The position numbers and the translations under genes were made by a program. Below are positions 2,407 through 20,663 of a DNA stretch of 64,000 nt, piece by piece. The stretch is from Halobellus sp. LT62 (lineage in GTDB: Archaea > Halobacteriota > Halobacteria > Halobacteriales > Haloferacaceae), in the NCBI RefSeq assembly GCF_037031285.1, contig NZ_JAYEZO010000001.1:1178001-1242000 (forward strand). The letters run 5' to 3'. How positions within the stretch are numbered: the stretch's first letter is position 1; each line of letters starts with the position of its first letter. The notes under the pieces are model-generated. The model was not told where the DNA came from. It searched no databases and saw nothing but the letters and a program-made list of their open reading frames with translations.

Positions 2407-3516
2407 TCAGTCGTACACGTCGGACCCCTTGCCCCACTCTCGCTCGATGGCGTATTCTTCGACGAGTTCGTCGTAGTTCTCGGGGTACTCGATTTTTTTT
2501 GTCACTGGTCCACCGAGGGTTTTTCCGATGGTCACGTTGAATCTCCCGCCCACCCCACCGATGGTGAGCACCTTCACGTTCTCCGGATCGGCTATTTGCG
2601 GCAACTGCAGGCTGGGTACTTTGCCATCATCAACCTGTTCGATCTGATTGTCGCCCCACTTTCCCCTGGCGTACTTATTCCGTGGAAGGTACGAGTTCTC
2701 ACAGAGGTACTCTTTGACCTCCTGTTTCGAGAGGCCCGCATCGCTCAGTTCTTCGGCGTTGTAGGGCGCAAGGGCGTGCACAACCGTCTGATTCCGGTCG
2801 GCGATTTCCGCCCCCGTCATCCCGGGCTCCATATGATAGACCATCCCTTCAAGGACGTGCTGTGCATCGTTCCGGTGTGGAGTCCAGCCGATGAAACTAT
2901 TCGGGCCCGCGAGCGTAATCGTGTCGTCAGTTTCATCGAACCCTTGAGAGATATGGAATGGCTCCCAAGGGCTTTCTTCCTCGTTTTCACCGGCGACGAG
3001 ACTATATTTGAACGGGTTGCCCGTCGTTGCCATATCCTTCTCGCCGGGATGAATCCCGGTCGTATTCTTGTAGGTGAGTCCGAGTGCACGGCCGAGCACT
3101 CGGTTCGTACGGAAGCCCGGACCGAACGCTCCCACACCGCATTGAACGTCGAGCTTCGATCGAATCGGTCCGTTGATCACCCACAGATAAGCCCAGGAGC
3201 CGGTACTCACCGAAAACTGAATGCTATTTGATTCGGGGTCTGCGAGCGCCTTCGCGCCGGCAATCAAGACCGGTAAATGAGGTGCGTAGCACCCAGCCAT
3301 CACGGCATTCGTCGCGAGCCGTTCGACCGTGAGTGGAGTATCGCCGTTTCCGAGGTGCCCGATGACGTGGTCGCTAGGGAGGTCCGTGCCACGAAGCATT
3401 TCGTCGACGCGGTCGTCCGTCGGTGGGACCACTGGCAGTCCATCGGTTGCCCCCTGCTTGTACAGCATATCGTTTACCTGCTCGAGCGACTGTTCAGAAT
3501 CGTTGTTTTGTGACAT
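2407..3516 (-). CDS. UGSC-system partner protein (DGLPVVPPT family)
   Basis: A 369-residue cytosolic protein with no signal peptide. It opens with DGLPVVPPTDDRV, followed by a NAVMAGC segment near residue 95 and a glycine-rich GGVGGRFNVTIG stretch near residue 325 ending in a GGPVTKKI motif. I recognise this arrangement from proteins encoded beside, or fused to, UGSC-type seleno/cysteine proteins; the biochemical role of the family is not established to my knowledge. The next gene upstream (ending 18 bases away) is the UGSC partner, so the two are almost certainly co-translated. I infer that both form one enzyme with redox chemistry. Confidence 0.6.
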   Translation of the reverse strand: MSQNNDSEQSLEQVNDMLYKQGATDGLPVVPPTDDRVDEMLRGTDLPSDHVIGHLGNGDTPLTVERLATNAVMAGCYAPHLPVLIAGAKALADPESNSIQFSVSTGSWAYLWVINGPIRSKLDVQCGVGAFGPGFRTNRVLGRALGLTYKNTTGIHPGEKDMATTGNPFKYSLVAGENEEESPWEPFHISQGFDETDDTITLAGPNSFIGWTPHRNDAQHVLEGMVYHMEPGMTGAEIADRNQTVVHALAPYNAEELSDAGLSKQEVKEYLCENSYLPRNKYARGKWGDNQIEQVDDGKVPSLQLPQIADPENVKVLTIGGVGGRFNVTIGKTLGGPVTKKIEYPENYDELVEEYAIEREWGKGSDVYD

Positions 3517-3533
3517 ATATGGTGGTTTGAGCG

Positions 3534-4115
3534 TTACTCAGGCGACACGCCTTGTTCCTTCTCTGAGAGCGGACGAGTCAGTTCCGCTTCGATCGATTCG
3601 AGCACCTCGGGTGTCAGCCGTTCGGCGATGCGATCCTTATCACGGACTTCCGAACGAACTGCCTTCGTGTTGTATCGGAGCGGCCACTGGCGTTCGACGG
3701 CGTTGGACTGATAGTCAAGCTCGAATCCGGGGTCGACGAGGCCGACTGTCGGAACGCCGGCGTCTTCGATGGCCGCGACGCCCCAAACGAGGAATTTCGT
3801 ACAGGAGCCGCAATCGCCGATCGCGGCGATGCACGCGTCGAGATCTTCTGTACGCGCCCATTCGCGGACTTCGTCGAGCTTTTCGGGATCTTTCGCATAA
3901 TTGAGGTGCTCCATCGAGTAGTAACTGAACGTTATGTCGTCGTACAGCTCGTCGATTCGTTCCCGTAGCACCTCAAGAACGGGTTCAGCCGCTAATTTCG
4001 CGTTGTCGTACAGACCGACGTGTTTTCCGTGTAGCTCATCGATACGCGGCGACAACGCGTGGAGTTCCGAAGGATCACCTGACGCAGTCGCGCCCAGTGG
4101 ATTCTTGATGTCCAT
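3534..4115 (-). CDS. UGSC-family redox protein, Cys form
   Basis: A 193-residue protein whose GDCGSCT motif (Cys102 and Cys105) corresponds to the U-G-S-C signature of the UGSC family, with cysteine where some relatives have selenocysteine. The CGSC pair is a thioredoxin-like dithiol expected to be the catalytic or electron-transfer site. The start ATG at 4115 is preceded by a TATA-like element at about 4135-4146, so this gene may head a transcript reading into the partner gene and the dehydratase pair. A thioredoxin-like gene and a thioredoxin reductase lie just upstream on the same strand, offering an electron path. The substrate is unknown. Confidence 0.6.
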   Translation of the reverse strand: MDIKNPLGATASGDPSELHALSPRIDELHGKHVGLYDNAKLAAEPVLEVLRERIDELYDDITFSYYSMEHLNYAKDPEKLDEVREWARTEDLDACIAAIGDCGSCTKFLVWGVAAIEDAGVPTVGLVDPGFELDYQSNAVERQWPLRYNTKAVRSEVRDKDRIAERLTPEVLESIEAELTRPLSEKEQGVSPE

Positions 4116-4134
4116 ACAGTTGGGTGAACAACGA

Positions 4135-4146
4135 AATATATAAAAT
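4135..4146 (-). promoter_or_regulatory. TATA box for UGSC gene
   Basis: An AT-only TATATAAAA-like run about 22-30 bases upstream of the start at 4115, the spacing expected of a haloarchaeal promoter with a short or absent leader. Confidence 0.45.
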
Positions 4147-4203
4147 ATGGTGGTGAAAGCAAGAATGATGAAAGTTCACAGGCCGAATAAAGGGGTGTTC
4201 CAC

Positions 4204-4932
4204 TCAGTCGGACTGTTCGGCCACGATTCCGATTTCCGCCCGAAGTGCTTCTGGGTTGGCCGACCCGACGATTCGTGATTCGACGCTGCCGTTGGAGCAG
4301 AACAACGTCGTCGGGGCGACTGAAACATCGTACTGCTCGGAGAGCAAGTCAGTTGCTTCGGGCCCATAGATGGCTCCAAGTGGCACGTCGACCGGAATAG
4401 CGTCTTGACTGACAAGTTTTTCGAACTGTTCTCGCATCACATCGCAGGGGGAACAGTCTTGTCTCCAACAGTAGATTATGGCGACGTCGTTTTCCTCGAT
4501 CACCGACATAATCTCGTCTGGCGAGAGGGCGATGAAACCCTCCGGAACGCCGTTGTCGATTTCGGTCTCGACCTGTTTGTCCGAAAGCCACGACCCGGAT
4601 TCGGTGCTTGGCTGAAGAATCTTGCCCAGCGCTCTCGCGGCGAGAAAGTAGTCGCTCGGCCGCTCCAGCGAGCACTGCTCTTCGAGCGCCATCCCGTTGG
4701 CCAGAACTTGGGTGTCTATCGACTCCAGTGCACACGCGGCCCCGTCGACATTCCACTCCTCCAACTTGGTGCGGCGTTCTGAACGAGTCAACGTATCGGC
4801 TACGTCGGCATATTGCGTCCTCAGTTCGGCGAATTCCGCTGTCAGGCTCAGCTGGGATTCGGCATCGGACACGAACACGTTCGCTTCGGCGAGTCGACCG
4901 ACGAACGATGCATAAGTGCTGTTCTCCGCCAT
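4204..4932 (-). CDS. Thioredoxin-fold protein with extra N-terminal domain
   Basis: A 242-residue protein with two parts. Residues about 1-125 form a mostly helical, acidic N-terminal region I cannot assign. Residues about 140-242 are a thioredoxin fold with the active-site CSPC pair (Cys160, Cys163) and the cis-Pro loop VAPTTLF. It lacks a signal peptide and is probably cytosolic. It sits between trxB and the UGSC gene on the same strand and is a plausible electron carrier from thioredoxin reductase to the CGSC centre. The start ATG at 4932 is supported by a TATA box at 4957-4966. Confidence 0.7.
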   Translation of the reverse strand: MAENSTYASFVGRLAEANVFVSDAESQLSLTAEFAELRTQYADVADTLTRSERRTKLEEWNVDGAACALESIDTQVLANGMALEEQCSLERPSDYFLAARALGKILQPSTESGSWLSDKQVETEIDNGVPEGFIALSPDEIMSVIEENDVAIIYCWRQDCSPCDVMREQFEKLVSQDAIPVDVPLGAIYGPEATDLLSEQYDVSVAPTTLFCSNGSVESRIVGSANPEALRAEIGIVAEQSD

Positions 4933-4956
4933 AGCTAAGCGATAGTGTGTTTCCTG

Positions 4957-4966
4957 TATATATATT
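4957..4966 (-). promoter_or_regulatory. TATA box for thioredoxin-like gene
   Basis: TATATATA-type run 25-34 bases before the ATG at 4932, a typical archaeal promoter position. Confidence 0.45.
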
Positions 4967-5597
4967 CATATGGCACAACGGATTTTTATCGTCTCCCTTG
5001 GACAATAATCGCCAGTGAAAACAATTTTATTATTACATTTATCGACCTTTCAATTATGGGATAGCTCGGCTTCTAACGGCCAAAATTTAGCCTTCTATGT
5101 TCATTATTGTTGATAAGTGTATTTATATAGTGAACAAAGGTGATACTGACGCGAGTGCGATGAATAGCGATAATGAGAACGTGCTGTGAAACAGAGTAAG
5201 AATGTATGCACAGTACCGATCGAGAAAGGAAGAGGTCTTTTTTCGGGCGACTTGCCCATCCAGAACAGTGCGTTTTCCGAAGTGAAACGCCCGTACCACG
5301 GTATTTCGATAGAGACGTTCTTTGTCTGGAGGTGTGACTCGAACGACGTCATCTTCATCTCGCCGCCGATTCCAATCTTCTTGTAGCTGCCGGAAGCCGT
5401 GTTAACCACGCCGGCGAACCACTGATTCACTTAGGTAGATCAGCTTTGATGTCGCGAGAGACATTGTTGGATGGCTGGTAGAAATTATCTGACTGGTTGG
5501 TCAGTCCGTTACGAACTTCGCTAGGGAAGTGTCATAAATAGGCCTATTCGCAACAAAGATGATAGTCTGTCGTCCCCAACACCCGGCGCTCTTGGCG
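4967..5597. other. Intergenic region, no confident gene
   Basis: About 630 bases between the thioredoxin-like gene and trxB. A minus-strand open frame at 5104-5430 contains a protein-like N-terminal stretch (for example the segment SLQ-to-EIPWYGRF around residues 33-49), but its C-terminal third looks random and I recognise no family. It may be a gene fragment. No RNA gene is evident. Confidence 0.35.
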
Positions 5598-6521
5598 CTA
5601 CCGGGGGTCGGCTGATTCGACGATGTATTCCTTAGCCGCGGACAGCGCCGTGACACCGTCACCGGTCGCGGCAGCGATCTCCGTCGGACTTCCCGAGCGG
5701 ATATCTCCTGCGGAGAAGATTCCAGATACCGAGGTTTCCAGCCGATCGTCGACGACGACCTGTCCGTCCTCGTTGCGTTCGACGGTTTCGGCGACGAACT
5801 CAGTGTTCGGAACGATGCCAACATTCACGTTCACGCCACTGAGTTCGATCGCTTCCGTGTCTCCATCATTGTCGACGACTTCGACGCCGTCGACGAGGCC
5901 GTCGCTCCCGAGGATTTCGGTGACTGTCGTACCCGTTCGGAGCTCGATATCGGGATGTGAACTCACCTCCTCAACGATTGTGCCGTCGGCGGGAAGTTCG
6001 GGATTTGAGTCGATCATTACCACTTCGCTCGCGTGCTTGGTCAGGAACACCGCGTCGATGAGCGCGTGGTTCCGCCCCCCTACGACGGCGATCCGCTCGT
6101 CGCGGTACAGCGGTCCATCGCACGCCGCACAGTGAAATATTCCACGACCCTCGTACTCCTCTTCGCCAGGCACGCCGAGGGACGCTTCCCTTCCACCAGT
6201 CGCCAGAATCACAGCCGATGCCTCGTATGTCCCGCTGGCAGCCTGCACCTCGTGTGGGGATCCCGGTTCGATCGACTCGACAGCCTCGAGGTTTACTTCT
6301 GATTCGTACTGCTCGGCGGCCGCGACCAACTTCGACCGCAGTTCTGTGCCAGAGATACCATCGGGGAATCCAGGGTATGAGCGGATCTTGTGCCGGTTCA
6401 CTAGGTCGCCGCCGATCGATTCCCTCTCGAAGAACAGGACATCGAGACCGCTACGGCCCGCGTACATTCCAGCAGTGAGCCCCGCCGGACCAGTTCCGAT
6501 GATGATTAGATCATATGTCAC
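5598..6521 (-). CDS. trxB: Thioredoxin reductase
   Basis: A 307-residue NADPH/FAD pyridine nucleotide-disulfide reductase of the low-molecular-weight TrxB class. The FAD motif GTGPAG starts at residue 9, the redox-active CAAC is Cys131/Cys134, and an FSAGD FAD-binding motif lies near the C-terminus. The open frame extends to 6731, but the extra N-terminal residues are unrelated, so the GTG at 6521 (VTYDLIIIG) is chosen. It should reduce thioredoxins in the cytosol; the adjacent thioredoxin-like protein and CGSC protein are likely partners. Confidence 0.9.
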   Translation of the reverse strand: MTYDLIIIGTGPAGLTAGMYAGRSGLDVLFFERESIGGDLVNRHKIRSYPGFPDGISGTELRSKLVAAAEQYESEVNLEAVESIEPGSPHEVQAASGTYEASAVILATGGREASLGVPGEEEYEGRGIFHCAACDGPLYRDERIAVVGGRNHALIDAVFLTKHASEVVMIDSNPELPADGTIVEEVSSHPDIELRTGTTVTEILGSDGLVDGVEVVDNDGDTEAIELSGVNVNVGIVPNTEFVAETVERNEDGQVVVDDRLETSVSGIFSAGDIRSGSPTEIAAATGDGVTALSAAKEYIVESADPR

Positions 6522-6796: not shown

Positions 6797-7246
6797 CTAG
6801 AACTGTTCCATCTGAGTAACCACTGGACAGTCGACGTTGAGCAGGATCTGCTGGGTGGTATTTCCAAATAGTGCCTTCCCAGTCGGTGACCGACGGCGTC
6901 CACTGATTACGAGGAACCTTGGATCCTCTTGTCCCGCTTCAGCGACTATCTCGTCGGCGATTTCACCAACCCGGCCGCGTGGATCAAGCATCGACGTGTC
7001 GAGGTCCGGGATAGTTTCAAGAGCGAACTTCCGAGCGAATCGTTCAGCACCTTCTACTTCGTCGCTCATCGAAAAGTCTTGGAATTCAGGAATCTCACGG
7101 ATTGCCTTCGTATGGTCGTTGAATTCGTCAGTGGGGATTACGTGCAACACAGCGAGCGTGTCGTCGTACCTCGTTGCAAGATCGTGTGCAACTTCGATCA
7201 CTTTTTTCGATCGCTCATTTTCGTCAACAGCGGCGAGTATCGTCAT
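6797..7246 (-). CDS. Universal stress protein (UspA family)
   Basis: A 149-residue single-domain Usp starting MTILAAVDENERS. The C-terminal VISGRRRSPTGKALFGNTTQQIL block resembles the ATP-binding G-2X-G-9X-G(S/T) region of UspA proteins. The open frame begins at 7303, but the ATG at 7246 fits the fold start. The role is cytosolic stress or nucleotide sensing, otherwise unspecified. It lies next to a decayed IS element. Confidence 0.85.
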   Translation of the reverse strand: MTILAAVDENERSKKVIEVAHDLATRYDDTLAVLHVIPTDEFNDHTKAIREIPEFQDFSMSDEVEGAERFARKFALETIPDLDTSMLDPRGRVGEIADEIVAEAGQEDPRFLVISGRRRSPTGKALFGNTTQQILLNVDCPVVTQMEQF

Positions 7247-7298: not shown

Positions 7299-7993
7299 GG
7301 CACTGTTCAGATAAGATGGAAAAATGAGGCGGTCGTAGTTGCTTGGTGCCTATGGAAGAAACCAACCGCCTCACCGAGTGTAGTGACTTCCCGGAGTTAG
7401 TATTCGTGGAGCGAGCGGCGACACCTGAGTCGGCGTTGAAGCTCGGTATCCAACTGCATTTAGCGGGTCTCTCGCTGTCGGATACCGCCTTTGTCCTCTG
7501 GGTTGGGTGTCGGACACTGTCGCCCCACTGTTCACAACTGAGTTCGGAAGGAAAATCTACAGCCTGCAAAGGGTCATAACCCGGATTACGTCACGGTCGA
7601 ACGAGACCGTAATCCGAGTCAATGACCAGCACTACTGGCTGTTTGCTGGGGTTGACCCCAACTCGAATCGCCTGCTGCAGGTGCGACTGTTCCCGACCAA
7701 GACTTCCGCGCTGACGGAGATGTTCCTCGCGGAACTACGAGAGAAACATCTTATCAACGACGCAATCTTCTTAGACGATGGTGCACCCTAGCTGCAGGCG
7801 GCCTGCTACCGCTACTCGCTCCGATTCCAACACGTCACCCACGGGAATTGGACGCCGTCGAACGTGTGTTTAATGAGCTGAAGCGCCGAAGTGAAGCGTT
7901 TGCTAACCATTTTAGACACGCTGATCTGAACACAGCAGAAACCTAGCTGCAAGCGTTCGCCGTCTACTTCAATCAGCTAATCTGAACAATTCC
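7299..7993 (+). mobile_element. IS6-type insertion sequence, decayed copy 1
   Basis: A 695-bp relative of the element at 22885-23581. It begins GGCACTGTTCAGATAAGA and ends with the inverted form (CTGAACAATTCC, where the other copy has AATGCC). No flanking duplication is visible (TTGGCAAG on the left, TTCGACGT on the right), as expected of an old insertion or one rearranged by recombination. Confidence 0.8.
7352..7985 (+). pseudogene. IS6-type transposase, degenerate
   Basis: Compared with the copy at 22938-23573, this frame has a two-base deletion near 7497, a Trp-to-TGA change near 7542, a one-base deletion near 7850 and an amber in place of Trp at 7944-7946. It also carries an amber (TAG 7789-7791) after GAP, exactly where the other copy has its only stop. 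The remaining match to the DDE transposase is clear. It cannot encode an active protein. Confidence 0.8.
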
Positions 7994-13092: not shown

Positions 13093-13950
13093 TTAAACCG
13101 AGAAAACCATCCCGTCTTCACCAATGATGATATTTCCATCATAAGCCGTCTGTATAATTTCCTTGGTCGAATTTTTATCTCGGTAAGGTAATAAGTGGGT
13201 TAATACTAGAGTATCCACGTCAGATTGTGTAGCAATCTCGCCACATTGCTCTGCAGTGCAATGAACTTCTGCAATTCTATCTTTTTTGTTTGTTGAAATT
13301 CCAGTAATATAGTTATCCCAAACAAATTCATCCTCCGGACGCTGGGGATCGCCACTGGGCGGAGCAATACTGCAGTCCTGAATCAATAGATCGGCATTAT
13401 TTGCAGCCTGTATGACACTATCTGTTTTCTTTGTATCCCCAGAAATTACTGTCGTAGACCCTGTGGATTCCTCTGTAATCATAAATCCGTATGTCTCAAT
13501 TGAATGTTCAACTGCAAAGGCCTCAACAGTCCACTCTGTTGCAGAAAAGGTAGCTTCATCTTTGACTTCGTGTGTCGGAATATTCTCAATCATCTCTGGA
13601 TCTGACCGTGCCGAAGTTCGGTACTCAATGTCCTCTTCATAAATCTCATACATACTCGATAAAAGGGTGTCCGTGGTAGGTTGCGGACCAAATATACTGA
13701 GTTCGTCCTCCCCACGTGTCCAGTTTGTGATCACAAAATAGTAGAAGTCTGCATTGTGGTCGATATGATGGTGAGTAAAGAACAATGCATCAATTGAACC
13801 CGGTGTAATCCCGTTCTCCACCATCCGGTGCATTGACCCAGGGCCACAATCAAATAACAGTCTATTTCCCCCAATTTCAATGAGGACACTAGATCCTGCT
13901 CGATTAGGTAGTGGGACGGGCGAGCCTGTGCCAAGTAGAGTAACTTCCAT
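13093..13950 (-). CDS. MBL-fold hydrolase, RNase Z-like
   Basis: A 285-residue metallo-beta-lactamase-fold protein. The metal motif THHHIDHNAD (about residues 59-68) provides HxHxDH, and later ligands are in VISGDTK and LTHLLPY. The layout resembles RNase Z and arylsulfatase-like MBL enzymes of catabolic clusters rather than a true tRNA nuclease. No signal peptide. It is convergent with decayed genes on the left and lies downstream of the CoA-ligase-like gene on the same strand. Confidence 0.8.
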   Translation of the reverse strand: MEVTLLGTGSPVPLPNRAGSSVLIEIGGNRLLFDCGPGSMHRMVENGITPGSIDALFFTHHHIDHNADFYYFVITNWTRGEDELSIFGPQPTTDTLLSSMYEIYEEDIEYRTSARSDPEMIENIPTHEVKDEATFSATEWTVEAFAVEHSIETYGFMITEESTGSTTVISGDTKKTDSVIQAANNADLLIQDCSIAPPSGDPQRPEDEFVWDNYITGISTNKKDRIAEVHCTAEQCGEIATQSDVDTLVLTHLLPYRDKNSTKEIIQTAYDGNIIIGEDGMVFSV

Positions 13951-14146
13951 ATTCCCACATTATACTAACTATCTATATATTTAACGATATATGAAAAAAT
14001 AAAATATTTATTACAAATAGATCTTTGCGATGTATTAAAACGGTCTAATTCACCAGATTCTCAAATATCTATTTTTATAATATTACATACTGTAGCTAAT
14101 TACTATCAGTTTAATTATATCCTTGGTCACTAAGATCTGAGGGGAG

Positions 14147-15706
14147 TTAATCCAGTGAGTTCTTGACCCCAGCTCTATCAAGCTTGTTAGTGGCGGTACG
14201 CGGAAGCGATTTGTCTACAAAGTTGTACTCCCGTGGGCGCTCGAAACGGGCCAGATTGTCACTCTTTAGACACCAATCGTCCAGCTCGCCAGCTGTGAGG
14301 TTAGCATCAGCACGATGAACTACGGCGGTCACTTTTTCCCCATATTCGTCGTCTTCTACACCGACGACTGCAGATTGAGCCACCTTTGGATGAGAATTAA
14401 GCACCTCCTCGATGGGGGCTGGATAGACCTTGATACCCTTCGAGAGAATCATAAAGTCTGAACGACCCTCTAAGTAGATGTAACCATCCTCATCTTGATA
14501 CCCGAGATCCCCTGAGTACCACCAGCCGTCTACGAATGCTTCTTGGGTCTTTTCGGTATCTCCCCAAGCCCACGCGACGCTATCCGGAGCTTTGACGATG
14601 ATTTCTCCTGTCTCATTTGGTGGCATTATATCAGTAGGGTTGCCGTCTTGCTCGATGATACGAACTTCTGTTGAGATTGCCGGTTTTCCCACACTCTCAA
14701 CTCGTTCATCATCCATCTCTTTGTTTGAGAGTGATGTTGCCATCACCTCAGTCGCAGCGAACGCATTATACACGAGACCACATACTTCAGATTCGAGGCG
14801 TTCAAGCGTTGTTGCGTCTAAGCGTTCACCAGCCGCTGTAATTCGTTCAAGTGATCCTAAGTCATACTCGTCAAACGATGCGATGTTTAGAACTTCTCGC
14901 CACATTGAGGGTACTAACGTTGCCATTGTTTGTTCTTTTTCCTCAATGAGATTGAGATACTTCTTTGGATCCCAATCCTGCAGAAAACAGGTTGCTGATC
15001 CTGTTAACATAGCGGGCATCGTCCCTGTAAACCACGCAGCAAATGATGGTGACAGTGTTTGTATGCGTCGCGTTGTTCGACTGATATTGAGTGCGCTCAC
15101 CAATTTCATCCCACGCATCACGGCGCTCCGATGTGTGAGACACCACCCCTTTGGCTTTCCAGTTGTCCCTGAGGTCCATAACACACTTGAGATCTCATCT
15201 TCCCCAATCTGGACATCGGGTGGCTGGTCAGACCGCTGTCGAAGAAATGGGGACATTTCGATCTCATACGAGGTTTGAGGCTCACCCGTCGTTATGACTG
15301 CATCCACACCTGTCGTGATATCATCGTAGATTTCCTCTTTAAAAAATTCTGAGTATTGCTCATCTAGGACGATTACGCTCGGATGGAGACGATCAATACA
15401 GTTCCGCATCGTCTTCGGTGAAGACTTCACGTGAAGATTTGAGACGACACAGCCGGCTTTGATTCCACCATTCCAGAGTGTGACGTGGTTCACTGATGCG
15501 TCACAAATGAATGCGATTCGGTCGCCTTGCCCCACATAGTTGCTAAATGCGTTCGCTGCTTGGTTACTTTCAGTATCGAACTCACTCCACGTTACACAAC
15601 GGCCATCTTTACCATCAGCAAACGCTTCGCGATTCGGATCACTCGCCGCTGCTATTCTTGACAGCTCGGTAAGTGGCACTGTATCGGCTGACATCGAGTT
15701 AATCAT
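14147..15706 (-). CDS. AMP-forming acyl-CoA ligase (ANL superfamily), paralog 1
   Basis: About 519 residues. It has the phosphate-binding loop WTSGTTGKPKG (near residue 185), the YNAFAATEV adenine-site motif, the GWWYSGDLGY hinge region and a C-terminal catalytic Lys region (PRTATNKLDR). It should activate a carboxylic acid to its AMP ester and CoA thioester. The open frame extends to 15727; I use the ATG at 15706 (MINSMSADTV), though MSADTV further in is also possible. It lies four codons or so downstream of an amidohydrolase, suggesting an operon. A paralog lies at 26835. Confidence 0.85.
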   Translation of the reverse strand: MINSMSADTVPLTELSRIAAASDPNREAFADGKDGRCVTWSEFDTESNQAANAFSNYVGQGDRIAFICDASVNHVTLWNGGIKAGCVVSNLHVKSSPKTMRNCIDRLHPSVIVLDEQYSEFFKEEIYDDITTGVDAVITTGEPQTSYEIEMSPFLRQRSDQPPDVQIGEDEISSVLWTSGTTGKPKGWCLTHRSAVMRGMKLVSALNISRTTRRIQTLSPSFAAWFTGTMPAMLTGSATCFLQDWDPKKYLNLIEEKEQTMATLVPSMWREVLNIASFDEYDLGSLERITAAGERLDATTLERLESEVCGLVYNAFAATEVMATSLSNKEMDDERVESVGKPAISTEVRIIEQDGNPTDIMPPNETGEIIVKAPDSVAWAWGDTEKTQEAFVDGWWYSGDLGYQDEDGYIYLEGRSDFMILSKGIKVYPAPIEEVLNSHPKVAQSAVVGVEDDEYGEKVTAVVHRADANLTAGELDDWCLKSDNLARFERPREYNFVDKSLPRTATNKLDRAGVKNSLD

Positions 15707-15730
15707 ATGATGCGATCCTATCTCCACAGC

Positions 15731-16813
15731 TTAAACATCGACGTACTGTCGGAACATTCGATCATCTTCAACTTCGATGTCGAAGAGACGAACGGCATTC
15801 CCACCCAGAATGAGATTGAGTTCCTCTTGAGGCAAGTCCTCCTGTATCGCGAACTTTTGGAGCTGTCTTAGACTCGGTCCCCAATAATCCGATTGGTGAG
15901 CAGGAAGGCCGCGGTCGTTGATTTGCTCCCAGTAGTACGGTGGATCTTCGTTTGGCTGGCTGTGTTCGACCATCGACGCTCCCCAGTCAGTACCCCACAA
16001 GATTTGCTCGATGCTGATATTCGGGTCGTTCAGCGGTTTTTTCATTAGTTCAGGCCAGTAGAGCCCAATTTCAAGATAGACATCATCGAACGAAGCAGCG
16101 ACCTGACAGCACTTTTCGACGTGTTGCTCCTGCCACCCAGCCTGCATCCCTCCGTGGTCAAAAATGATCGGCACCTCGGGATATTCCGCTTTCATCTGAC
16201 TAGCAAGCGTTGGATCGCTCCAGTCTGGGAAGAGATTGAACAACCCGTGAGCACCGCCGTAGCCGGAGACATATCCAGTATGCCATCGAACCGGTACCTC
16301 GTGCTTCGCAGCTACATCAAAGACGTGACGCATATCCTTCTTCCGTTGCGACCACTCAACTGGTTCATCTCGCGTTGGATCACCACGAATACCCTCGCCG
16401 GACATACGAAAACCATCCTTTGAGAGCCACTCATCGAGTTCTGCTGCAGCAGCCTCCCAAGACCACTCCTCTTCACCGCGCAACGCTTTCTTTTTTGTTT
16501 GTACGGGGGCAGCTGCTGCAATGAATTTCCCGGGGTTCTCCTCCATAATTTGTTGATTAATTTCGTTCGTCATTCCGAAACTGGGAAGAAGAACACACAT
16601 ATCCACACCATAGGTCTCCATATCGCGTAAGACGCGATCAGAATTGTCGTAGACAATGACATCCTCATCACCATCAGCGTCATCAGCCGGTACAGCCATT
16701 TTCATTTTGTCTGGCAGCGTCCCATATGAGGAGTCATCCCCATCATTCTGAATTCGGGCGGCGTGTCGCTGGCCGTGACAATGCGTCTCAATGATGAATC
16801 GTCCAAGCTTCAT
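15731..16813 (-). CDS. Amidohydrolase family protein (Amidohydro_2), paralog 1
   Basis: A 360-residue TIM-barrel metal hydrolase or decarboxylase. The first metal motif is THCHG (His11, His13), a later His is in VRWHTGYVSG, another in FDHGGMQ, and the catalytic Asp in WGTDWGAS. The C-terminal LNLILGGNAVRLFDI is shared by all three paralogs here. The family includes ACMSD, LigW-type decarboxylases and lactone hydrolases. A TATA box precedes the start at 16839-16848. Neighbouring CoA ligase and IclR genes point to catabolism. Confidence 0.85.
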   Translation of the reverse strand: MKLGRFIIETHCHGQRHAARIQNDGDDSSYGTLPDKMKMAVPADDADGDEDVIVYDNSDRVLRDMETYGVDMCVLLPSFGMTNEINQQIMEENPGKFIAAAAPVQTKKKALRGEEEWSWEAAAAELDEWLSKDGFRMSGEGIRGDPTRDEPVEWSQRKKDMRHVFDVAAKHEVPVRWHTGYVSGYGGAHGLFNLFPDWSDPTLASQMKAEYPEVPIIFDHGGMQAGWQEQHVEKCCQVAASFDDVYLEIGLYWPELMKKPLNDPNISIEQILWGTDWGASMVEHSQPNEDPPYYWEQINDRGLPAHQSDYWGPSLRQLQKFAIQEDLPQEELNLILGGNAVRLFDIEVEDDRMFRQYVDV

Positions 16814-17148
16814 CTCATAATTCTGGATCCGTCACTACTATAAATATTTGGTGTACAACCGACGAATTTCCACTTTACGGCAGGGGAATGAACCAGCAAA
16901 TGACCGTTGCTACAGTAGTATCTCCTGTTTGCGAGCTACCCAGCGAGACAGAACAAAGATCAAAATCCGTGTGAACTATTTACACACATTGTTTAGACAA
17001 TATCGAAAGAGATAGTGAATACATTTCGCCTGCGCTACTATGTGAGTCTAAGTCTTGATTGGGAATCCTGCCCGCCAAACTCCACGATCTATCATCATAT
17101 ATCTGTTATGCAAAAAATTATAACCTAATGTAACCAAGTTGTCCGTAT
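16814..17148. other. Divergent promoter region between amidohydrolase and iclR
   Basis: It contains TATA elements for both directions (about 16839-16848 minus strand; about 17117-17127 plus strand) and a small inverted repeat ATTGT/ACAAT at 16988-17001. Such sites between an IclR gene and its divergent target are typical operator locations. No gene is seen. Confidence 0.45.
16839..16848 (-). promoter_or_regulatory. TATA box for amidohydrolase 1
   Basis: ATATTTATAG-type run about 26-35 bases upstream of the ATG at 16813. Confidence 0.45.
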
Positions 17149-17913
17149 ATGAAAAACAACCCACAATCGCGGTCAATCAAGTCCGCCGAAAGAACTTTCG
17201 ATATTCTCGAAATCGTTCATCAGCACGATGGGGCCACATTAACAGAAATCTCTCAAGAGATAGATCTTGCACGAAGTACCCTTCACGATTACCTCAAAAC
17301 CCACGTGAACGCAGGGTACCTAGTAAAGGAGGGAAAACAGTACTACGTTTCGCTGCGGCTATTAGAATTGGGCCAGCAGGCGAAAATCACCCGGACAGCG
17401 TGGGAACAAGTCAAACCAGTGCTCCGAGAGATCGGAAATGAAACGGGGGAACACGTTTGGTTTGTGGTTGAAGAGCACGGAAAGGGCGTCTATGTCGACA
17501 ATTATGCCGGAGAGCACGTTATTTCACTGTTCAACACGCCCGGGGTTCGTCATCACCTCCACTGTACCGCTGCCGGGAAATCGATTCTCGCGCATCTTCC
17601 TGAACAACGAGTGGCAGATATCCTCGAAAGCTATGGTCTCCCGGAATTCACCGATCAAACGATCACCAATGAATCAGCCCTGCGTGACCAACTTGCAGAG
17701 ATTCGCGAGACCGGTGTGGCCTTTGCAGACGGCGAATGGAATGAAGGACTGAGAGCTGTTGCGTGCCCTGTTATCCGTGATGATGAGCTTATCGGAGCCA
17801 TCACACTCGGTGCCCCCTCAAAACGTCTAAGCGGCAGTTACTACCGAGACGAGATCCCCAGCATCGTTTCTGGGGCAGTAAATCGCCTTGAGCTCTCATT
17901 TACCAAGAGGTAG
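17149..17913 (+). CDS. IclR family transcriptional regulator 1
   Basis: A 254-residue two-domain regulator. Residues about 8-65 are a winged helix-turn-helix (SAERTFDILEIV, TLTEISQEIDLARSTLHDYL). Residues about 75-250 form the GAF-like effector domain (VRHHLHCTAAGKSILAHLPEQR and GLRAVACPVIRDDELIGAI). It is divergent from amidohydrolase 1 and most likely controls the surrounding unit. Its stop is followed within three bases by a GTGTAC-core motif that is also found after a second iclR gene. Confidence 0.9.
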   Translation: MKNNPQSRSIKSAERTFDILEIVHQHDGATLTEISQEIDLARSTLHDYLKTHVNAGYLVKEGKQYYVSLRLLELGQQAKITRTAWEQVKPVLREIGNETGEHVWFVVEEHGKGVYVDNYAGEHVISLFNTPGVRHHLHCTAAGKSILAHLPEQRVADILESYGLPEFTDQTITNESALRDQLAEIRETGVAFADGEWNEGLRAVACPVIRDDELIGAITLGAPSKRLSGSYYRDEIPSIVSGAVNRLELSFTKR

Positions 17914-17915
17914 TA

Positions 17916-17937
17916 AAATAACAAGTGTACGTGTGTC
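17916..17937 (+). promoter_or_regulatory. GTGTAC-core motif, copy 2
   Basis: AAATAACAAGTGTACGTGTG immediately follows the iclR stop codon. Near-identical blocks occur at 82-103 and 58416-58437. It could be an operator for downstream-reading or convergent transcription, or a conserved 3' element. Confidence 0.5.
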
Positions 17938-18263
17938 ATTTTATACGTGTGGATTGTTGTCGTGGGGGCGAGTCTACCTTTCGATAGTATCGAAATATAC
18001 TCAGGCGTCATTCCTCATAAGCTCTCGATGATCCCCTGTATTGAGATGCACTCCAAAGCCTACCTCACGCTATCCGTGATGATCAGAGTGAACGCAAAAT
18101 CCACGGACTAGTCGCACAACTCAAGCCTTATCCAATTCTCTCGCCGTGGCTTCGACTCCGACCTAATAGCTGTTGAGCGCTGAGCTGTAGACAGTTATTG
18201 CATTGCTTATGGTGAATAACCGGGGAGAGGCCCTGTGAGACCTGTGAAGTTATTCAGGTGGTT
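17938..18263. other. Intergenic region, convergent
   Basis: About 325 bases between the ends of iclR and amidohydrolase 2. Several stop-rich frames run through it; a stretch around 18040-18160 could be old transposase debris, but I cannot assign it. No gene or RNA is seen. Confidence 0.35.
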
Positions 18264-19340
18264 TTAGAGATATTCTGGGAACAATCGAGTTTCGGGCGGT
18301 TCGATATCGAGTAATCGACACGCATTGCCGCCAAGAATGAGATTGAATTCATCTTGGGGGAGCTCTTCATCCCAGACGAATTTTTTGAGTTGCCGGATTG
18401 ATGTTCCCCAGTAGTCAGGCTGATGCGCAGGGAGCCCCCGACTCTGGATCTGATCCCAGTACATTGGCGGGTCCTTTGTTGGTTGGGAGTGCGCCACCAT
18501 TGACGCACCCCAGTCGGTCCCCCATAGGAGTTGACTGATATCGATGCTCGGATCATTGAACGGTTTCTGGATGAGATCTGCCCAGTACAGACCAATCTCG
18601 AGATAGACGTTGTCGTGGCGGGCTGCGACCTTGCACGCAGCGTCAACGGTGTCTTCGTGCCAAGTTCCTTGCATTCCCCCGTGATTCACGATGATATCCA
18701 CGTCATCATACTCTGCTGCAAGCTCTGAGACGAGCGAAGGATCCTCCCAATCAGGATAGACGTCCAGGGAGGACTTCCCATCTGAATACCCGGATACAGT
18801 GCCCGAATGCCAACTGATCGGCACATCGTGGGCATCAGCGACCTCGAAGGCCTGTCTGAGTTCGTCGCGTCGTTCGCTCCACTCTATCCGCTCGTTTCGA
18901 GTCGGATCAGTTGGGGCAGATTCTCCAATTCCGATAAATTCCTCTTCCTGAAGTACCTCGTCGAGTTCCTCGCAAGCCCGTTCGATTGTCCATTCTTCTT
19001 CACCACGGGCGGCGGCCTTGTCTGTCTGCACAGGCGAGGCCATAGCACTGAACCGCTCTGGGTATTCTTGGACCATTTGTTGGTGGATTTCGTTGGTCAT
19101 ACCAAACCCAGGGAGAAGCACACACCGGTCCACTCCATAAGAGTCCATATCATGGATGATGCGATTGGTGTTTGGATACACGATCACATCATCGTCCTCG
19201 GTGGCCTCGTCGGCGGGGGTCGCAGTCCGCATTACGTGAGAAATACTTTCGTAGCCGGCGTCGGTCGCCGATTGCTCGAGCCGAACAGCGTGTCGCTGTC
19301 CGTGTACGTGGGTGTCGACGACGAATCGGCCGGGTTTCAT
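18264..19340 (-). CDS. Amidohydrolase family protein, paralog 2
   Basis: A 358-residue homolog of the proteins at 15731 and 19566. It starts KPGRFVVDTHVHGQRHAV (metal motif HVH), has VPISWHSGTVSGYS, a VNHGGMQGTWHED motif and GTDWGASMVAHSQPTKDPP, and ends with LNLILGGNACRLLDIE. All metal-binding positions seem intact. It follows paralog 3 on the same strand with 225 bases between. The duplication suggests either different substrates or dosage. Confidence 0.85.
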   Translation of the reverse strand: MKPGRFVVDTHVHGQRHAVRLEQSATDAGYESISHVMRTATPADEATEDDDVIVYPNTNRIIHDMDSYGVDRCVLLPGFGMTNEIHQQMVQEYPERFSAMASPVQTDKAAARGEEEWTIERACEELDEVLQEEEFIGIGESAPTDPTRNERIEWSERRDELRQAFEVADAHDVPISWHSGTVSGYSDGKSSLDVYPDWEDPSLVSELAAEYDDVDIIVNHGGMQGTWHEDTVDAACKVAARHDNVYLEIGLYWADLIQKPFNDPSIDISQLLWGTDWGASMVAHSQPTKDPPMYWDQIQSRGLPAHQPDYWGTSIRQLKKFVWDEELPQDEFNLILGGNACRLLDIEPPETRLFPEYL

Positions 19341-19565
19341 ACAATCATCACCTCTGAATCAGTAGGCGAGTTGCACTGGTGTTTCTGTTCGTGATGTTGG
19401 TGGTCGTTGTGTACGTGCATTGGCGGTGTGTGTTTGTTGTTGGTGGGCTGTGCCGCGGTGGGTTCTGTCCCAGAAGGTGTGCGCCCACGCGGTCGACGGC
19501 TAGTTTGGGTGCGATTGCCAGAGTGCATCGATAGATTGCGTTGGGTGCTTGATGACTCGATGACG

Positions 19566-20663
19566 TTAGAGGTATTCCGGGAACATACGGGATTCTGGCG
19601 GCTCGAATCCGAAGAGATCACACGCATTCCCACCGAGAATCTGATTGAGTTCGTCCTGTGGCAATTCTTCATCCCAAGTGTACTTCTCGATCTGTCTGAG
19701 CGAGGTACCCCAATAATCTGGTTGATGCGCTGGAAGCCCACGTTCGCTGATTTGATCCCAGTATATTGGGGGATCTTTTGTTGGCTGTGAGTGCGCGACG
19801 ATCGATGCTCCCCAGTCGGTTCCCCACAGTAGTTGGCTGAGATCGATGCTGGGATCATCCATCGGCTTCTTGAGGAGATCAGCCCAGTACAGACCGATCT
19901 CGAAGTGTACATTGTCGTGGCGGGCCGCAACTTTGCAGACGGTATCGACTGTATCTTCCCGCCACCCTCCCTGCATTCCGCCGTGGTTGAGCATAATGGA
20001 AACATCGGGGTACTCGGCAGCGAGTTCTGAGACCAATGAGAGGTCCTTCCAATCTGGGTAGTACTGAGGGAAGCTCCCACCTTCTGTTGAACCACTCCCT
20101 GAGTAGCCCGTTGCCCGCCCAGCGTGCCAACTCACCGGGACGTCGTGCTTTGCTGCGACGTCGAACACTTTCCTGATCTGATCTCGCCGTCGGTCCCACG
20201 GGACGTGTTCAGTGACCGTTGGGTCACACGGCAGCCCTTCACCGATTCCGACGAAGGCGTCCTGTGAAAGGAGTTCATCGAGTTCCTCACATGCAGCGTC
20301 ATAGGAGTATTCTTCTTCACCCCGAATGGCGTTTTTCATCGTCTTGACAGGTGCTGCCATCGCCTTGAAGCGATCTGGGTGATCTTCGACCATCTCTCGG
20401 TTCAGTCTGTTCGACATCCCAAATCCAGGAAGTAACAGACATCGATCTACCCCGTACGCATCCATATCATACGTGAGACGGTCCGTGTTTTTGTATACAA
20501 TCGCTTCATCCGTTTCATCGGCCTCGTCAGCGGGGACAGCTGTTCGCATCTCACCAGCGAGGGATCCGTAATTTGCCTCCCCAGTATTTGCCTCGAAGTT
20601 TACCGCGTGTCGTTGACCGTGCACGTGTGTATCGATAACAAACCGCCCTGGTTTACCACGCAT
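19566..20663 (-). CDS. Amidohydrolase family protein, paralog 3
   Basis: A 365-residue homolog of paralogs 1 and 2, with THVHGQRHAVNF, VPVSWHAGRATGYSG, LNHGGMQGGWRED and GTDWGASIVAHSQPTKDPP. Residues about 195-205 contain a short GSGSTEGGS insertion absent from the others. The start ATG at 20663 has a TATA box at 20685-20694. It is probably the first gene of a minus-strand pair with paralog 2. Confidence 0.85.
   Translation of the reverse strand: MRGKPGRFVIDTHVHGQRHAVNFEANTGEANYGSLAGEMRTAVPADEADETDEAIVYKNTDRLTYDMDAYGVDRCLLLPGFGMSNRLNREMVEDHPDRFKAMAAPVKTMKNAIRGEEEYSYDAACEELDELLSQDAFVGIGEGLPCDPTVTEHVPWDRRRDQIRKVFDVAAKHDVPVSWHAGRATGYSGSGSTEGGSFPQYYPDWKDLSLVSELAAEYPDVSIMLNHGGMQGGWREDTVDTVCKVAARHDNVHFEIGLYWADLLKKPMDDPSIDLSQLLWGTDWGASIVAHSQPTKDPPIYWDQISERGLPAHQPDYWGTSLRQIEKYTWDEELPQDELNQILGGNACDLFGFEPPESRMFPEYL

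Follow-up and report, generated by a model that had tools for sequence, protein, structure and literature searches.

The locus examined here raises the question of what chemistry is performed by a protein of the UGSC family that is encoded beside a second protein, named after its motif DGLPVVPPT, and close to a thioredoxin reductase-like gene. It lies on the minus strand of a 64,000-nucleotide stretch (hereafter the window; G000:C1:1178001-1242000) of the 3.23 Mb genome of the haloarchaeon Halobellus sp. LT62. We consider it fairly probable that UGSC and DGLPVVPPT together make up a two-component thiol/selenol reductase whose reaction breaks a bond adjacent to a carbonyl or carboxylate group. 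The main new result, absent from the preliminary description of the locus, is a kinship between UGSC and the GrdB/PrdB reductase subunits.

The UGSC gene (3534-4115) encodes a Cys-form protein with C102-G-S-C105 (bases 3801-3812) within the sequence GDCGSCT, and the DGLPVVPPT gene (2407-3516), with its motif at residues 25-33 (bases 3418-3444), follows downstream. This identification, already made in the preliminary description, was confirmed by a PF24696 match of 74 bits against a gathering cut-off of 25 (2.1e-20); the cut-off of the NCBIfam equivalog NF041046 was missed (61.9 bits vs 125). The order of the two genes was also as described, but the gap between them is 17 bases instead of 18. 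All 21 UGSC proteins of our alignment A1 match PF24696, C102-G-S-C105 is invariant across that alignment, and both cysteines, or selenocysteine (Sec) plus Cys, are retained in 25 of the 25 UGSC members listed. The haloarchaeal members examined are of the Cys form. Selenocysteine in some relatives, as stated in the preliminary description, was found in Paracoccus and Acidovorax: an in-frame TGA falls exactly on the first-Cys position in Paracoccus versutus, P. ferrooxidans and Acidovorax sp. T1 (NUGSC, DUGSC). A near-identical hairpin begins a few bases 3' of this TGA and is 1.5 to 2.3 standard deviations more stable than shuffled sequences (-17.5 vs -11.9 and -19.3 vs -14.9), and in P. ferrooxidans selB lies 3.5 kb from the UGSC gene. 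These three plasmid-borne Sec genes are absent from the annotation tables at hand (L063:7672, L068:7663 and L064:7704, respectively).

The relationship of UGSC to GrdB/PrdB was investigated by profile comparison. The GrdB/PrdB set was drawn from plasmid records with annotation and comprised P. acidaminophilum GrdF, E. gilvus GrdH, two PrdB and two unannotated sequences; the annotated matches confirmed the probe fragment with which it was collected. With hhalign, the two profiles aligned over 84 columns with a probability of 96.2 and a score of 71.8. In this alignment Cys102 is matched with the selenocysteine and Cys105 with the Cys that follows it, and the CGSC/UGTC, IE..GIP and HP blocks coincide. 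When the six motif columns were masked the score was 44.8, and the controls gave 19.8 for a reversed profile, at most 21.5 for 100 column shuffles and at most 25.6 for about 57 unrelated families. Scores above the unrelated-family controls came only from clusters containing natural fusions. Each UGSC subclade matched GrdB/PrdB on its own, with a probability of 80% for the clade of the window, 95% for the second haloarchaeal clade and 93% for the bacterial one, and a GrdB/PrdB hidden Markov model run over all open reading frames of the collected loci returned UGSC proteins in the first 16 places. The Pfam model GRDB (PF07355) gave no match to the 21 UGSC proteins at E-values up to 5. Judged by these profiles, UGSC and the active-site domain that carries selenocysteine in GrdB/PrdB, the subunits of the glycine, betaine, sarcosine and D-proline reductases, are homologous. 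No paper tying UGSC to GrdB/PrdB was found in the literature, although the kinship may stand in sources outside our reach. The visually similar Asp/Glu and hydantoin racemases were also tried as relatives of UGSC, GrdB or DGLPVVPPT and were rejected (scores ≤25).

By analogy, UGSC-DGLPVVPPT would act in the manner of protein B of glycine/betaine/sarcosine reductase or of D-proline reductase. DGLPVVPPT would provide the pocket in which a small organic acid or ketone is bound and positioned; Cys102 of UGSC, or Sec in some bacteria, would attack the carbon adjoining the carbonyl and displace its substituent; and Cys105 would then break the C-S (or C-Se) bond to leave a C102-C105 disulfide. This disulfide would be reduced by a CSPC-containing protein and a dedicated TrxB, with NADPH as the source of electrons. 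The proposed catalysis, the role given to each protein and the substrate class all draw on homology and context, the basis of the analogy being glycine and D-proline reductase; glycine reductase depends on a thioredoxin (Trx) dithiol, and the mechanism involves a C-Se bond (PMC10298544). Because relatives of GrdB/GrdE have been linked to fluoroacetate reduction, and GrdB relatives are associated with C-F as well as C-N cleavage (PMC10838667), the leaving group is not predictable from homology.

UGSC and DGLPVVPPT are a genuine unit with obligate pairing. A survey of 293 Halobacteriales genomes showed UGSC in 13 and DGLPVVPPT in 14, with 13 in common (Fisher p ~1e-21), although these genomes, like the plasmid records, are samples and the frequencies approximate. 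Linkage in other haloarchaea had been set beforehand as a test, and linkage is what they show: DGLPVVPPT was present in 13 of the 13 UGSC genomes. A single Halobacteriales genome has DGLPVVPPT by itself; DGLPVVPPT without UGSC was noted in Haladaptatus halobius (L065:7974-8981). On plasmid records the pair is carried by Variovorax, Acidovorax, Paracoccus, Neorhizobium, Roseovarius, Arthrobacter, Embleya, Vibrio and Sporomusa; the two genes stand in either order when adjacent, or are fused as UGSC-DGLPVVPPT. The previously stated occurrence of split and fused forms holds for Variovorax boronicumulans, Acidovorax sp. T1, Vibrio and Sporomusa. In Neorhizobium galegae VafX2 a fusion with CSTC instead of CGSC is apparently split by a frameshift (L067:7308-8976).

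The partner has no named family: neither the window protein nor 28 relatives matched Pfam or NCBIfam. Cys76 (bases 3289-3291), Thr105, Asn138, Arg143, Glu177 and His188 are strictly conserved in alignment A2, and Cys76 is retained in 33 of 33 sequences of the DGLPVVPPT tree. Many haloarchaeal loci show the order DGLPVVPPT-UGSC-DGLPVVPPT, and the tree separates the upstream copies from the downstream ones, as two groups whose order is kept across genera (support 99/97 for the downstream group, a weaker 86/74 for the upstream group), which suggests a heteromeric enzyme. The single copy in the window branches outside both groups. The window genome contains two UGSC and four DGLPVVPPT genes in total, and one of its DGLPVVPPT genes is an orphan with no UGSC nearby (L022:8087-9175; G000:C1:582090-583172). 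No relatives of either protein were detected in viral contigs, PDB sequence searches with both profiles gave nothing convincing, and no paper naming the DGLPVVPPT motif was found, with subscription sources outside our reach.

The genes that would supply electrons lie upstream of the pair, and the order of transcription is stress protein, trxB, CSPC protein, UGSC, DGLPVVPPT and a LeuC/LeuD-type pair. The trxB-like gene (5598-6521) encodes an FAD/NAD(P) disulfide reductase with CAAC as its CxxC motif (Pyr_redox_2/TRX_reduct; PF07992 1.4e-43, TIGR01292 5.8e-85). The CSPC protein (4204-4932) is a two-part thioredoxin-fold protein with CSPC at residues 160-163 (bases 4444-4455), in which the PF00085 thioredoxin domain (2e-6) is confined to the C-terminal half; it is likely to be a dithiol carrier. 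It recurs at two other haloarchaeal loci, L008 and L031, with C160, P162 and C163 invariant. Both genes had been placed just before the pair on the same strand; strand and order were correct, but the genes are not contiguous, as 665 bases separate trxB from the CSPC gene. All 9 haloarchaeal loci in the clade of the window UGSC, and 6 of 11 bacterial loci, have a TrxB-like CxxC gene within 10 kb of UGSC, against a chance expectation of about 2% per locus (three such genes per 3.2 Mb). At these 15 loci the two genes are 0.1-6.3 kb apart and CxxC is intact in all. In Arthrobacter the order is trxB-trxA-DGLPVVPPT-UGSC. The TrxB paralogs at the two UGSC loci of the window genome are 66% identical to each other, the next TrxB only 39%, so these two TrxB proteins look dedicated. 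Recurrent TrxB neighbours in archaea and bacteria support the previously suggested chain from NADPH through TrxB to the CSPC protein; that its end point is a reductase, we infer.

A linked TrxB and a CxxC/UxxC motif would also suit a general Trx-type thiol oxidoreductase acting on a disulfide, peroxide or sulfoxide, with DGLPVVPPT binding its protein or small-molecule substrate. UGSC was indeed proposed as likely Trx-fold in the Global Ocean Sampling (GOS) selenoproteome, where it is among the most abundant selenoprotein families of marine metagenomes with 255 sequences (PMC2398784). We nevertheless regard this alternative as unlikely. The UGSC profile finds its match in GrdB/PrdB; against the local Trx family, which comprises only 3 sequences, it scores 13.5, and this small comparison lends the Trx-fold proposal no support; the neighbouring genes are mostly catabolic enzymes and not stress genes; and such an oxidoreductase would not need DGLPVVPPT, yet DGLPVVPPT accompanies UGSC everywhere. 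Structure models were of low confidence: the AlphaFold model of UGSC (pLDDT 57) shows a Rossmann-like alternation of strands and helices, that of DGLPVVPPT reached pLDDT 35, and the alignments were shallow (3 and 5 rows). Foldseek/VIA matches of the UGSC model to OxyR/LysR effector domains, TolB and aminoacyl-tRNA-synthetase anticodon domains (best Z 6.2) were not meaningful.

Several observations weigh against the reductase proposed here. GrdB shares only one domain with UGSC, which is without the N-terminal half of GrdB, and the DGLPVVPPT profile scores below 18 against the pyruvoyl subunits GrdE/PrdA, showing no sequence relation. In the other haloarchaeal UGSC clade, eight loci keep CGSC intact yet show no linked trxB in the sequence covered. 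A confident comparison of folds was not possible, and the PDB yielded no structure of GrdB or PrdB. In addition, fused members from plasmids of Vibrio europaeus (L061:9227-11059) and Sporomusa termitida (L059:9323-11047) have MGTS in place of CGSC; going by their sequences these fusions are a branch that lost the redox cysteines, and they suggest that some members act without them. The idea that DGLPVVPPT is a GrdE/PrdA homolog with Cys76 as its pyruvoyl-forming residue was dropped as unsupported on the same profile scores. The window genome gave no match to GrdE/PrdA (PF09338) or GrdA (PF04723), and the control genomes were equally silent for both.

The MGTS fusions bear on the view that the pair is a non-redox enzyme: a hydro-lyase, isomerase or C-X lyase that would use Cys102 as a nucleophile, while TrxB merely keeps CGSC reduced. 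Both fusions adjoin a gene pair for aconitase X and DUF126, DGLPVVPPT itself contributes Cys76, Glu177 and His188, all invariant, and LeuCD-like hydro-lyase genes adjoin the pair in the window. These encode a LeuC/HacA-type large subunit (957-2216; TIGR01343 2.5e-143, under the LeuC equivalog cut-offs) and a LeuD/DmdB-type small subunit (462-956; TIGR02087 above cut-off). A survey of UGSC homologs for LeuCD-like neighbours had been suggested earlier; such neighbours do not belong to the conserved system, since none of the related loci searched has a LeuC/LeuD relative, although the two MGTS fusions have the aconitase X pair beside them. A non-redox role is, in our estimation, improbable, since both redox residues are retained in all listed members, no linked trxB was found at the two MGTS loci, and the homology points to a redox family.

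The neighbourhoods of the pair offer clues to the substrate of the proposed reductase. GMC oxidoreductases, an aldehyde dehydrogenase and TrxB surround the pair in haloarchaeal relatives and in Variovorax SRS16, perhaps converting an alcohol to an aldehyde and then to an acid on which UGSC-DGLPVVPPT would act. Other relatives have TRAP/TTT carriers, coenzyme A (CoA) ligases/transferases, CoA ester lyases and relatives of isocitrate lyase/phosphoenolpyruvate mutase as neighbours. From the alcohol/aldehyde dehydrogenases, CoA ligases/transferases and TRAP/TTT carriers, the substrate is likely to be a catabolised organic acid, perhaps derived from an alcohol. Phosphosulfolactate-synthase-like genes lie near UGSC in Arthrobacter (L062:7713-8501) and Natrinema zhouii (L073:4877-5344), a possible hint at a C-S substrate. 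In the window, a C-terminal aldehyde dehydrogenase remnant of 43 residues (5302-5430) lies between trxB and the CSPC gene and matches the ends of L021:11197-12633 and L031:2347-3783 at 65-67% identity. As L031, from a relative of the same genus, has a complete aldehyde dehydrogenase immediately before its CSPC gene, the window locus is a shortened form of an L031-type cluster, and the stump testifies to a deletion within an ancestral cluster of catabolic genes. That the window copy is itself a decaying or repurposed remnant, which lost the dehydrogenases of a GMC/aldehyde dehydrogenase/TrxB/UGSC cluster, may have left its pathway and may now act with LeuCD, would fit this stump, the lack of an adjoining GMC or alcohol dehydrogenase gene, a UGSC score that is by a small margin the lowest of its haloarchaeal clade among the collected loci, and the second, fuller UGSC locus elsewhere in the genome, but it is the least likely alternative given four intact reading frames with active-site residues and spacing retained.

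Beyond trxB lies a universal stress protein gene (6797-7246; PF00582 1.1e-19), a recurrent haloarchaeal neighbour with relatives at loci L021, L031 and L056. To its right, transposase-like open frames with an interrupting stop were seen by eye (7349-7990), and further left of the LeuCD-type genes, enolase-superfamily and dehydrogenase genes. Amidohydrolase-2, acyl-CoA ligase and IclR regulator genes run from 13093 to 20663, a probable catabolic region.

The kinship with GrdB/PrdB, the obligate partner and the TrxB chain turn an "unknown redox protein" into a concrete problem for enzymology and give UGSC a first testable role, the removal of a group from a small organic molecule by thiol electrons, which the Cys-form haloarchaeal proteins would allow to be tested without selenium machinery. 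Among the hosts of UGSC-DGLPVVPPT, unlike those of GrdB/PrdB, are haloarchaea and proteobacteria that are usually considered aerobic. More tentatively, and with somewhat more doubt than confidence, UGSC-DGLPVVPPT may represent a separate, largely aerobic branch of the glycine/D-proline-reductase type, in which a new substrate-binding subunit replaces the pyruvoyl subunit, NADPH acts via thioredoxin to cleave an alpha-substituent of an organic acid (C-O, C-N, C-S or C-halogen), and the many paralogs and neighbourhoods would mean many substrates. If true, bond-breaking chemistry of strict anaerobes would extend into aerobic catabolism.

Compared with known systems, the window protein shares Sec or Cys at CGSC with the PF24696/NF041046 family while lying below the NF041046 cut-off. 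The UGSC/Unknown_1 fusion, of which only the fusion itself has been described, likewise joins UGSC to a conserved domain (PMC2398784), and Unknown_1 is probably the DGLPVVPPT domain. The proposed fluoroacetate reductase FarB/FarE of Synergistota is a precedent for GrdB-type action beyond C-N bonds next to a carboxylate, but it belongs to the true GrdB/GrdE family and is anaerobic, unlike UGSC-DGLPVVPPT (PMC10838667). GrdB/PrdB (PF07355) likewise has the aligned UxxC, IE..GIP and HP blocks, a second subunit and, in glycine reductase, a thioredoxin-type electron supply; its partner is GrdE/PrdA, whereas that of UGSC is DGLPVVPPT.

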